From an uncultured Alphaproteobacteria bacterium (lineage in GTDB: Bacteria; Pseudomonadota; Alphaproteobacteria; Bin95), in the NCBI GenBank assembly GCA_938083135.1, contig CALLKY010000005.1:1-64000 (forward strand): a stretch of 64,000 nucleotides of DNA. The letters run 5' to 3'. Every line of letters begins with the position of its first letter. Within the stretch, counting starts at the first letter, position 1. A program made the translations under genes and the position numbers. The notes under the pieces were generated by a model. The model worked only from the letters and a program-made list of their open reading frames with translations, did not search any database and was not told where the DNA came from. Below are positions 36,424 through 61,982 of this stretch, piece by piece.

Positions 36424-37797
36424 ATGCCCGATATTCTTGCCGCATCTGGCCGCAATGCCATCCCTTTGCATCTCGTGACCGCAGACGGCTTGGAAGATTG
36501 GCTGGATGAGCTGGATACGGGCGCTGTTCGATGGGTCGAGGTGTCTGGTTTTAAGGGTAAAGCTGGTCAAACCGTGCTGTTGCCAGGTCAAGACGGCAAG
36601 GCAGCCAGCGCGGCACTTGGCATATCAAGCCTAGACGACTTCTGGGCTTGTGGCGGTGCCTCCAGCCAATTGCCGGATGGTCTTTACGCGATCCAGACTA
36701 AGCTCACCAAAGCGCAGGCGACCAATATCGCCGTCGCGTGGTCGCTCGGCGCGTATAAGTTCGACAAATACAAAAAGAAGCCCGCTAACGGTGCCCGGCT
36801 TGTATGGCCGAAGGGGGCGGACAAGACGGTCGCGGAGGCAATCCGGGCAGGTGTGGCGACCACCCGCAGCCTGATCAACACGCCTGCCAGCGATATGGGC
36901 CCGGCGGAACTTGCCGCCGCCGTCAAAGCCGTTGCCAAGCCGCATAAGGCCAAAGTGGCGCTGACTGTTGGCAATGACTTGCTGAAGAACAACTTCCCGA
37001 CAATCCATGCCGTCGGCCGCGCCAGCGACCGCGCACCCCGGCTGATCGATATGACTTGGGGGCCGAAATCAGCGCCCAAGGTCACGCTGGTCGGCAAGGG
37101 CGTTTGTTTTGATACCGGCGGGCTGGACCTTAAATCTGCTGCCGGCATGCTCACTATGAAGAAGGATATGGGGGGGGCTGCAGCCGTCCTTGGCCTTGCA
37201 GAATCCATCATGCGGATCGACTTGCCGGTCCGCATGCGTGTGTTGATCCCGGCGGTTGAAAACAGTGTGTCTGGCAACGCCATGCGCCCATTGGACGTGA
37301 TCAAAACCCGCAAGGGCATCACGGTCGAAGTCGGCAATACGGACGCGGAAGGCCGCCTTGTGCTGTGTGATGCCATCGCGCTCGCCATGGAAGAAAAGCC
37401 GGATCTGGTGATTGACTGCGCGACACTGACGGGTGCGGCCCGTGTCGCCCTTGGTCCCAGCCTTCCGGCACTGTTCTGCAATGACGATACATTGGCGAAC
37501 GATATCCTCGCCGCTGGCCTCAAAACGGATGATCCGCTTTGGCGCCTACCGCTGCATGCACCCTATAAAGAGATGTTGGATAGCGATGTGGCAGACATGA
37601 ACAACGTGTCCACTGGCGGTTTTGCAGGTGCCATCACGGCGGCGCTTTATCTCTATGCCTTTGCTGAAGACACTGCACCCTGGGCGCATATCGACATGAT
37701 GGCCTGGAATCCGGGTGCGAAACCTGGCCGCCCCAAAGGCGGCGAAGCGCAGTCAACCCGTGCGCTGCTGGCAATGTTGCAGAAGCGGTTCGGGTAA
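36424..37797 (+). CDS. M17 leucyl aminopeptidase family protein
   Basis: This 457-residue metallo-aminopeptidase has the C-terminal M17 catalytic domain intact: 'LVGKGVCFDTGGLDLK' (catalytic Lys and a metal Asp), 'MKKDMGGAAAV' and the signature 'NTDAEGRLVLCDA'. The N-terminal domain is short and divergent, as in the PepB-like alphaproteobacterial group. It should release N-terminal residues from peptides in the cytoplasm. AAGGAGCACC stands just before the ATG. Confidence 0.92.
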   Translation: MPDILAASGRNAIPLHLVTADGLEDWLDELDTGAVRWVEVSGFKGKAGQTVLLPGQDGKAASAALGISSLDDFWACGGASSQLPDGLYAIQTKLTKAQATNIAVAWSLGAYKFDKYKKKPANGARLVWPKGADKTVAEAIRAGVATTRSLINTPASDMGPAELAAAVKAVAKPHKAKVALTVGNDLLKNNFPTIHAVGRASDRAPRLIDMTWGPKSAPKVTLVGKGVCFDTGGLDLKSAAGMLTMKKDMGGAAAVLGLAESIMRIDLPVRMRVLIPAVENSVSGNAMRPLDVIKTRKGITVEVGNTDAEGRLVLCDAIALAMEEKPDLVIDCATLTGAARVALGPSLPALFCNDDTLANDILAAGLKTDDPLWRLPLHAPYKEMLDSDVADMNNVSTGGFAGAITAALYLYAFAEDTAPWAHIDMMAWNPGAKPGRPKGGEAQSTRALLAMLQKRFG

Positions 37798-37827
37798 TTT
37801 GTTAGTTCATCTGCCCTTACTTCTTGA

Positions 37828-37869
37828 ACCCTCGCCCCCCATCGGGGCGAGAGGGCAGGGTGAGGGGGG
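37828..37869. repeat. Palindromic repeat, single unit E
   Basis: One unit in the 'right' orientation: ACCCTCGCCCCCCATCGGGG, then CGAGAGGGCAGGGTGAGGGG. It lies in the spacer after the aminopeptidase gene, about 80 bases before pair F. Confidence 0.8.
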
Positions 37870-37931
37870 TGCCTGCCACGAGAACCAAATGGCTGCATTT
37901 CCCGTCCACAATGCGCTGATGGACTTCGAGA

Positions 37932-39323
37932 ATGTCTGACCCCCGCTGGCATCCCCCCTCATCCCAACCTTCTCCCCCCGTTGGGGGGAGAAGGGGCTAT
38001 GGCGGTGATGCTTCTAAAAACCCCCTCACCCCCCAGCGGGGGGAGAGGGCTGGGGAGAGGGGGGCGCCTGCAAGAGAACTAAGCCCGTCTGAACCGACCC
38101 CCAAAGCCAAAGCCCCAATCAGCCAGAAACTCTGGATCATGTTGATTTGTGGCGTGTTGGTCGTATTGATTGGCAATGGCGTTCGGCTGACATTCGGCAT
38201 CCTGCTCAAGCCCATTGCCTTCGATCTTGAAATCAGCCGTGAAACCTTTGGTCTCGTGATCGCGATGCAGGCGTTGCTGTATGGTGCGTTTCAGCCAATT
38301 GCGGGCATTCTGGCGGACAGGTTTGGCGCGGTCATTGTCATTACCGTGGGCGCGCTTCTGTATGCAGGCGGGCTGTTTCTCGCCAGCATGGCGTCATCCT
38401 CGCTGGAGCTATCGATCTCGCTTGGCCTGCTTGTTGGCATCGGCCTCAGTGGTGCTACCAATGTGATCGTGCTGGGTGCGATTGCCCGCGTCGTCCCGGC
38501 GGAGCGGCGGGGCATCGTATTCGGTACGGTGATTGCTGCGGGCTCGCTCGGCATGTTCATTTTTGCACCTGCTGTGCAAGCGATTATGCAGGCGTTTGGT
38601 TGGCGGGAAACACTGCTGGCGCTGGCAGCGTTGATCCTAGTTTCACCATTGATGGCGCAAGGCCTCCGCGCGGCTAAGGCGGGCGCGGGGGCGGCCGTGC
38701 AAACAGCCCGGCAGTCCTTATCTGATGCAACATATGAAGCCGCGCGGCATCCGGGATATCTGCTGCTAACGGCAGGGTTCTTTGTCTGCGGGTTTCACGT
38801 CACATTTATCAGCACGCATTTCCCGGCATATTTGCAGGACAATGGCGTCTCCGCGTCCGCAACATCCTATGCGTTTGGGGCCATTGGGCTTTGTAATATC
38901 GCGGGTGCCTATATTTTCGGGGCGTTGAGTGACAAGTTCAGCAAGAAAAGTGTTCTAACGCTGATCTATCTGCTCCGCGCGGTCCTCATGACGATCATCC
39001 TGATATCCCCGATGACGGATATGACCGCCATTATGTTCGGCGCGCTGATGGGGCTGCTATGGCTCAGCACTGTGCCGTTGACCAGTGGAATCGTGGCGCA
39101 GGTTTTTGGCCCGGCCCATTTCTCATTCCTGTTCGGGATTGTGTTTATGGGTCACCAGTTCGGCGGTTTCACGGGTGCCTGGCTGGGCGGGCGCATCTAT
39201 GACATGACCGGCTCCTACGACATCATGTGGATGATATCGATCGGCCTCGGCTTGGTCTCCGCGATGCTCCATTGGCCGATCAGGGACCAACCTTTGCCGA
39301 GGCTTGGCGCGGTGCCGGCTTAG
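37932..39323 (+). CDS. MFS transporter with a repeat-derived N-terminal insert
   Basis: This 463-residue carrier has about twelve helices starting at residue 67 ('KLWIMLICGVLVVLIGNG'). Paired MFS loops are 'GILADRFGAVIV' and 'GALSDKFSKKSVL'. Residues of about 8-45 are encoded by repeat pair F, giving a Pro/Gly/Arg-rich leader ahead of helix 1. The only good ATG with a normal N-terminus is at 37932. An ATG at 38139 would begin inside helix 1 and has no ribosome-binding site. The second half resembles organic-acid carriers. The substrate is unknown. Confidence 0.8.
   Translation: MSDPRWHPPSSQPSPPVGGRRGYGGDASKNPLTPQRGERAGERGAPARELSPSEPTPKAKAPISQKLWIMLICGVLVVLIGNGVRLTFGILLKPIAFDLEISRETFGLVIAMQALLYGAFQPIAGILADRFGAVIVITVGALLYAGGLFLASMASSSLELSISLGLLVGIGLSGATNVIVLGAIARVVPAERRGIVFGTVIAAGSLGMFIFAPAVQAIMQAFGWRETLLALAALILVSPLMAQGLRAAKAGAGAAVQTARQSLSDATYEAARHPGYLLLTAGFFVCGFHVTFISTHFPAYLQDNGVSASATSYAFGAIGLCNIAGAYIFGALSDKFSKKSVLTLIYLLRAVLMTIILISPMTDMTAIMFGALMGLLWLSTVPLTSGIVAQVFGPAHFSFLFGIVFMGHQFGGFTGAWLGGRIYDMTGSYDIMWMISIGLGLVSAMLHWPIRDQPLPRLGAVPA
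37952..38065. repeat. Palindromic repeat pair F inside a coding sequence
   Basis: Unit one (37952-37995) starts CCCCCCTCATCCCAACCTTC and closes CCCCGTTGGGG. Unit two (about 38020-38065) starts ACCCCCTCACCCCCCAGCGG. Both lie within the MFS transporter frame and keep it open. The first two thirds of each unit match the intergenic copies. Confidence 0.82.
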
Positions 39324-39351
39324 GGGTGAGGCCGCCTCTAACCTGCAAGCC

Positions 39352-39471
39352 TCCACCCTCACCCTGATCCCTCTCCCTCCTGTGGAGGGCGAGGGGACCC
39401 TCACGAAGTCCGCGTGTCTTCCTTTTGGAACCCTCGCCCTCCACAGGGGGGAGAGGGCAGGGTGAGGGGGG
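39352..39471. repeat. Palindromic repeat pair G
   Basis: The left unit (39352-39394) has CCACCCTCACCCTGATCCCT then a CCTCCTGTGGAGGG centre, a compensated variant of the usual CCCCGTTGGGG. The core GACCCTCACGAAGTCCGCG follows. The right unit (39429-39471) has the matching variant centre CCTCCACAGGGG. It separates the convergent MFS and helicase genes. Confidence 0.85.
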
Positions 39472-39513
39472 AAGGTCGCAGGACAGAACGTGCGCCCATA
39501 TTCAAAAAAAACC

Positions 39514-61787: not shown

Positions 61788-61825
61788 GGTTGACGCAATG
61801 CCTGCCTCAGCCTAGCTTTCAGGAC
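61788..61825 (+). promoter_or_regulatory. Likely promoter of the riboswitch-LuxE-LuxC unit
   Basis: TTGACG at 61790-61795 is followed after 17 bases by TAGCTT at 61813-61818. Transcription would begin near 61825, just before the riboswitch P1 stem. The -10 is weak. Confidence 0.5.
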
Positions 61826-61827
61826 AT

Positions 61828-61926
61828 ATCCATAGGGGAGCCTCTCCTTCGAGGCTGAGATGTCGCTGGCATGGTGCGATGACCCTTTGAACCTGACCCG
61901 GATCACGCCGGCGTAGGAAATGGGAT
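61828..61926 (+). promoter_or_regulatory. TPP (THI-box) riboswitch
   Basis: The aptamer is complete. P1 pairs 61828-61833 (ATCCAT) with 61920-61926 (ATGGGAT, one bulged base). P2 is GCCTC/GAGGC, followed by the invariant CTGAGA (61855-61860). Then come GACCCTTTGAACCTGA, CCGG/CCGG-type P4 pairing, and GCGTAGG. These are the pyrimidine- and pyrophosphate-binding blocks of the thiamine pyrophosphate riboswitch. It points at the LuxE-like gene, 62 bases downstream of P1. Confidence 0.95.
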
Positions 61927-61982
61927 TTGCTCCATCCAGCAAAGTCATGTTCCGCGCCGGAAATCCGTGCGCACGAAGGATG
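61923..61982 (+). promoter_or_regulatory. Putative riboswitch expression platform (translation control)
   Basis: TTTGCT/AGCAAA (61926-61931/61938-61943) form a hairpin whose loop contains CATCC (61933-61937). That is complementary to GGATG (61978-61982), which includes part of the ribosome-binding site of the LuxE-like gene. GGATTT (61923-61928), partly the 3' strand of P1, can instead pair with AAATCC (61961-61966). These alternatives could expose or hide the ribosome-binding site. No intrinsic terminator with a U-run is present. Confidence 0.5.

Follow-up and report, generated by a model that had tools for sequence, protein, structure and literature searches.

The Rickettsia palindromic element RPE-1 is a palindrome read in frame within protein, and it is recurrent within genes. 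The repeat pair described here comes from the genome (G000) of an uncultured alphaproteobacterium and lies in the window, the whole stretch of 64,000 nucleotides that was analysed (contig CALLKY010000005.1, positions 1 to 64,000). It is like RPE-1 in that a palindrome falls in the frame of a protein, here a predicted one, and differs in being a single case in G000 and of an intergenic type.

Other described systems also share features with this repeat family. The triplex motifs of E. coli (TM or TMECO; Holder et al. 2015, PMC4666352) are laid out as CCCTCNCCCC-loop-GGGGAGAGGG-loop-GGGTGAGGGG, like the G000 units, and they sometimes occur as inverted pairs, as in G000. The copies in E. coli K-12 are always intergenic according to the same paper; G000 differs in having one copy overlapped by an open reading frame. 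Also unlike TM, 51 of 58 G000 clusters have two or more matches, a few of these being one hairpin scored on both strands. REPINs (Bertels and Rainey 2011, PMC3116915) are like the G000 repeats in having inverted short palindromic units with a short spacer, a mostly extragenic location, and a long predicted hairpin. GTAG- and CGTC-tagged REPs, which include RPE-4 and RPE-6 (Di Nocera et al. 2013, PMC3733652), are described with siting past stop codons, convergent or same-direction neighbors, and occasional overlap with the N-terminus of an open reading frame, all as here; the G000 units lack the tag layout given there, and their stem is longer and G/C-rich.

We interpret the locus as an intergenic REP-like pair ahead of a transporter gene that has probably lost its start, is initiated at 37932, and tolerates the resulting leader (probability about 0.58).

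Identity and siting of the repeat family

The identity of the family was found through a literature search for its core sequence, GGGGAGARGG, of which the genome has 99 copies (50 + 49) versus 24 (9 + 15) of the reversed control. A covariance model built from an alignment (A1) of 13 window copies matched at least 115 units in G000 and at least 35 in a close relative, G003, both lower bounds from the best 150 candidates scored per genome; Holder et al. give 23 for E. coli TM. Matches were found in 8 of 14 genomes. In the sister genus, six of eight genomes have at least 1 to 20 units each, and within the genus itself the three remaining genomes gave no covariance match among the best 150 candidates scored in each. 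A profile of the window copies aligned near end-to-end with four of five E. coli TM sequences (E 6e-7 to 3e-5) and partially with the fifth. The triplex-motif layout is present in the 13 aligned copies as a stem, CCCTCNCCC/GGGNGAGGG, and an adjoining third tract, GGGTGAGGG.

What marks a REPIN, two REP units in inverted orientation that form a hairpin, is found here in the arms and the predicted fold. A REPIN is also expected to have a RAYT transposase, but Y1/RAYT (PF01797) had no match in the 14 family genomes searched, all of them drafts, with named controls matching in 5 of the 14; yet a single genome carries more than 100 repeat units. The A1 consensus, compared by eye with the description in PMC3733652, does not show the features of CGTC-tagged REPs (CGTC tag, 8-9 bp stem, A/T first pairs, and CCA tail); CCTC is given there as a variant of the tag, but the G000 stem and tail still do not fit. 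A scan of IMG/VR with an exact 26-base pattern gave no match, nor did a literature search for REPIN and RAYT in alphaproteobacteria. The pair at 37951-38066 belongs, as an ordinary member, to a known repeat family that is mostly intergenic.

At E < 1e-4 there are 58 clusters in the window together with 47 fetched stretches of G000; three fetched stretches had no match at E <= 0.01, and one (L186) had weaker matches only. Genes were called with our own hexamer model rather than a published caller. There is no overlap with a called open reading frame for 53 of the 58 clusters, the other five being the transporter and clusters in L153, L166, L169, and L182. We judged these last four by later starts and Pfam stretches. 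In each, the element touches only the front of the frame, and the frame has a later start past the element: an ATG at residue 61 (L153), 19 (L166), and 18 (L182), and a GTG at residue 13 (L169). The best Pfam match starts at residue 535 in L153 (the better of two Radical SAM stretches), 19 in L166, 39 in L182, and 32 in L169. All four were rejected as further in-gene copies. By these gene calls the transporter is the sole cluster of the 58 that lies well inside an open reading frame and at which starting later would truncate the conserved protein, so insertion in frame within coding genes is not recurrent.

Neighboring genes are convergent at 22 clusters, same-direction at 28, and divergent at one, with one side uncalled at seven. 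The median distance is 30.5 nt to 3′-facing gene ends (n = 78) versus 58 nt to 5′-facing ends (n = 31); the family is sited mostly just past stop codons.

The preliminary description pointed to the frame being kept open across about 114 bases. The frame is indeed open, for 463 codons, but not beyond chance. Through 36 '+-' pairs, 80 of 216 frames are open, and 42 of 216 are still open 52 nt further on. An open frame through the repeat is for that reason no evidence on its own, and we rejected it as evidence of coding. Among 35 gene frames facing clusters, the stop falls after the element in 22 and inside it in 10, and three run through it uninterrupted: L153, a single unit in L155 (where the called gene starts beyond), and a minus-strand frame in L174 that is not a called gene. 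The transporter is counted among the 10 because a third unit is joined to its cluster.

The repeat tag, GGGTGAGGGG, places a GTG in frame behind a G-rich stretch, immediately upstream of genes for RNase HII (L169, 1900-2577, -), glycine cleavage P-protein (L166, 3712-5115, -), and gamma-glutamyltranspeptidase (L182, 839-2530, -). A GTG derived from the tag may mislead start prediction.

The repeat pair and the transporter start

The open reading frame at 37932-39323 (+) has a predicted product of 463 amino acids, leader included, and this product is an MFS transporter (PF07690, E 1.7e-46; the best stretch starts at residue 77). Two palindromic units had been placed inside this frame from the letters of the sequence, and both are confirmed. 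Inverted arms at 37953-37996 and 38021-38064 are 84% complementary, with a 24-nt gap, and the covariance model finds a left unit, the C-rich strand, at 37951-37996 (+; E 5.5e-12) and a right unit at 38021-38066 (-; E 4.4e-11). The right unit is G-rich on the + strand, with its third tract altered to GGGGAGAGGG. Both are within the first 46 codons, at about residues 7-22 and 30-45, in agreement with the Pro/Gly/Arg-rich leader proposed for about residues 8-45 ahead of helix 1. The region 37925-38145 folds to -109.2 kcal/mol (z -4.49), and 0 of 200 shuffles were as good. A second inverted pair of the family is found just past the transporter stop (39351-39473, unstranded). The window also contains a TPP riboswitch (61824-61936; RF00059, E 2.6e-13).

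Upstream is an M17 aminopeptidase gene (36424-37797, +; PF00883, E 3.9e-104) that is 97% identical in G003, where its stop anchors the repeat. An extra unpaired unit (37827-37871, -; E 1.7e-12) lies between the peptidase stop and the start of the transporter frame and is absent from the matching place in the G003 stretch. Matches to 37790-37950 outside its own place span the repeat unit and a few adjoining bases. A 16-codon ATG...TGA frame, MAAFPVHNALMDFENV (37889-37939, +), has a stop that overlaps the ATG at 37932 (ATGTCTGA), which may reflect translational coupling or chance.

The ATG at 37932-37934 (+) is the sole in-frame ATG, GTG, or TTG of the open frame upstream of the element. Past the element, a Pro/Lys-rich linker (38077-38117, +; from the G003 alignment) leads to the conserved transporter body, and the only other in-frame start codon ahead of the body is ATG 38139-38141 (+), at residue 70 and so inside predicted helix 1 (residues 65-85). 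These two starts are at -84 and -15 relative to a conserved Arg on which 79 of 80 homologues were anchored (L047 lacks the motif). An in-frame start lies 20-40 codons before this Arg in 78 of the 79, the exception being L058, versus 13 and 18 of 79 in the two other frames used as a control; with ATG alone, the counts are 72 in frame versus 5 and 8. Six orthologues of 61-66% identity carry ATG or GTG where the window has an ATC (38118-38120, +), and all six could start there without a leader, with Shine-Dalgarno energies of -3.4 to -7.3 (five of them at -5.5 or better). ATC is found at this position in both G000 and G003. The ordinary start of the transporter seems, from this alignment, to be gone in the window genome, which would be an unusual feature; a literature search for a REP as an N-terminal extension with a start codon gave no match.

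Shine-Dalgarno pairing at ATG 37932 is weak (-3.0 kcal/mol), and the reference medians are -4.8 for 129 genes and -2.2 for random sites. The predicted structure has a mean pLDDT of 86.3, with residues 7-44 below 50; this low confidence for the leader arises partly because no other aligned row covers it. With no normal start downstream, initiation at ATG 37932 with translation of the repeat is the most likely reading. The leader proposed in the preliminary description is retained to that extent, with its initiation predicted from sequence.

A doubtful alternative is that ATG 38139 is the start codon and that the pair forms an intergenic hairpin upstream of the gene that is not translated. Chance alone often leaves a frame open through the element, the leader drifts between G000 and G003 nearly as non-coding DNA does, and most REPs at the 5′ ends of open reading frames in P. 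putida, C. koseri, and S. maltophilia are perhaps non-coding, according to PMC3733652. This start would leave an N-terminus shorter than is apparent in 78 of the 79 anchored homologues and would remove five residues from predicted helix 1, and its Shine-Dalgarno pairing is almost nil (-0.9). The same paper also describes R. conorii proteins with an N-terminal RPE-1 as expressed.

Comparison with relatives

G003 is a draft of 660 contigs and is about 86-94% identical to G000 in the DNA around element sites. It has the same pair ahead of the same transporter, with 97% identity over the 58 residues that precede the contig end. At this contig end, which truncates the transporter gene, positions 30-48 of L009 are presumably Nextera adaptor sequence. 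The preliminary description had looked to relatives for a short N-terminus free of the repeat. The six orthologues, which could start leaderless, are consistent with this, but G003 has the same element in the same place.

Apart from the gene itself, there is no closer transporter orthologue at E <= 1e-100 in the 14 family genomes, a cut below which the 58-residue G003 fragment falls, and none at E <= 1e-110 in the same 14 genomes, drawn for the order. Two orthologues of 64-67% identity were found among 385 genomes of the class. When relatives were examined for an empty site, the peptidase and the helicase that lies downstream fell on separate contigs in G001, G002, and G004.

The first unit in G003 starts 20 nt past the peptidase stop, so the pair there looks like an intergenic insertion with the transporter frame running back through it. 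The leader frame is open in both genomes. The sole indel from the element to 38117 is of 12 nt, in the right unit (shorter in G003), and keeps the frame, whereas seven of nine control sites have indels and in six of these seven the net length is not divisible by 3 (L198 changes by 15), a comparison that covers one relative and one indel. Over the 55 leader codons there are 8 synonymous and 12 non-synonymous substitutions, versus 13 and 0 over the first 55 codons of the transporter body. Those in the leader are distributed 6/6/8 by codon position, with omega about 0.5 overall and about 0.9 in the right unit; in the left unit 2 changes are synonymous and 0 non-synonymous, and in the right unit 3 and 8. 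Together, the indel and the substitution counts indicate that the frame has been kept and the residues of the right half of the leader have not.

Synteny was compared for 12 G003 loci with a long G000 match (of 13 fetched), all element-bearing and from the draft assembly. At the repeat pairs, L193, L199, and L200 jump between G000 contigs, and the match of L191 stops there. The pair downstream of the transporter is among these 4 of 12 loci. The breaks could resemble those reported at E. coli triplex motifs (PMC4666352) or could be joins of the draft assembly.

G003 has an in-frame GTG from the repeat end with a Shine-Dalgarno energy of -10.7 kcal/mol, the strongest among the candidates scored, and further in-frame starts closer to the transporter body. 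Opposite the G003 GTGs the window has GAG and GCG in frame, the GCG being aligned with the GTG that has the strong Shine-Dalgarno. In the tag family consensus the first codon fits GTG and the second position is variable. It is conceivable, but unlikely, that the repeat end acts as a portable translation start, used as GTG in G003, and that GAG and GCG in the window push initiation upstream and turn the palindrome into coding sequence. A stepwise conversion of a repeat into an N-terminus would then be seen across two species, in a direction of change that we infer; we consider this conversion just as unlikely.

The preliminary description likened the pair to elements that insert within Rickettsia genes, that is, a selfish element inserted in frame into an existing coding N-terminus. 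The leader starts MSDP and ends Pro/Lys-rich, resembling the short tails of homologues such as L098 (MSDAASPAPASGLSRRAWIM), but the G003 pair is flanked on its left by the peptidase stop plus a further 15 bases, and the MSD codons are missing there. None of the other clusters in the set of 58 is well inside a called open reading frame, and the family is found mostly past stop codons. The likeness is therefore not supported, and we regard in-frame insertion as very improbable. Equally improbable is non-standard initiation in the linker, for example at ATC 38118, which holds the orthologue start position in both genomes but has no Shine-Dalgarno (-0.3), or a poorly expressed gene that is being lost, since a body free of non-synonymous changes over its first 55 codons does not look like that of a decaying gene.

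Formation of the leader and its significance

Under the preferred reading, with initiation at ATG 37932, an inverted G/C-rich triplex-motif (REP-like) pair would have arrived between the peptidase and transporter genes, past the peptidase stop. The ordinary start of the transporter, at about codon 38118 or elsewhere in the linker, would be missing in the window genome. With few stop codons in the repeat to interrupt it, the transporter frame extends upstream across the pair as far as ATG 37932, and this codon would then be the most probable start. The leader, about 60 residues long, would be a disordered tail in the cytoplasm that persists by tolerance, not by selection; both the tolerance of this tail and the order of events are what we infer.

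The frame kept in G003 despite the 12-nt indel, unlike at most indel-bearing control sites, supports this explanation. Counting against it are a Shine-Dalgarno at ATG 37932 that is below the gene median and near the random one, no clear coding constraint over the leader as a whole (the left unit alone excepted), and the ATG that precedes the pair in G003, which is a different codon from ATG 37932 and is accompanied by nearer in-frame starts.

The locus gives the impression of a minor local accident, not of a new kind of element that invades genes. Callers of open reading frames easily run through this stop-poor repeat family, so the predicted N-termini that adjoin it are not to be trusted without a map of starts. 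If the leader is made, the transporter gene would have taken over an adjacent intergenic palindrome as its N-terminus after its own start was lost, a clear instance of this instead of a gene invaded by an element.
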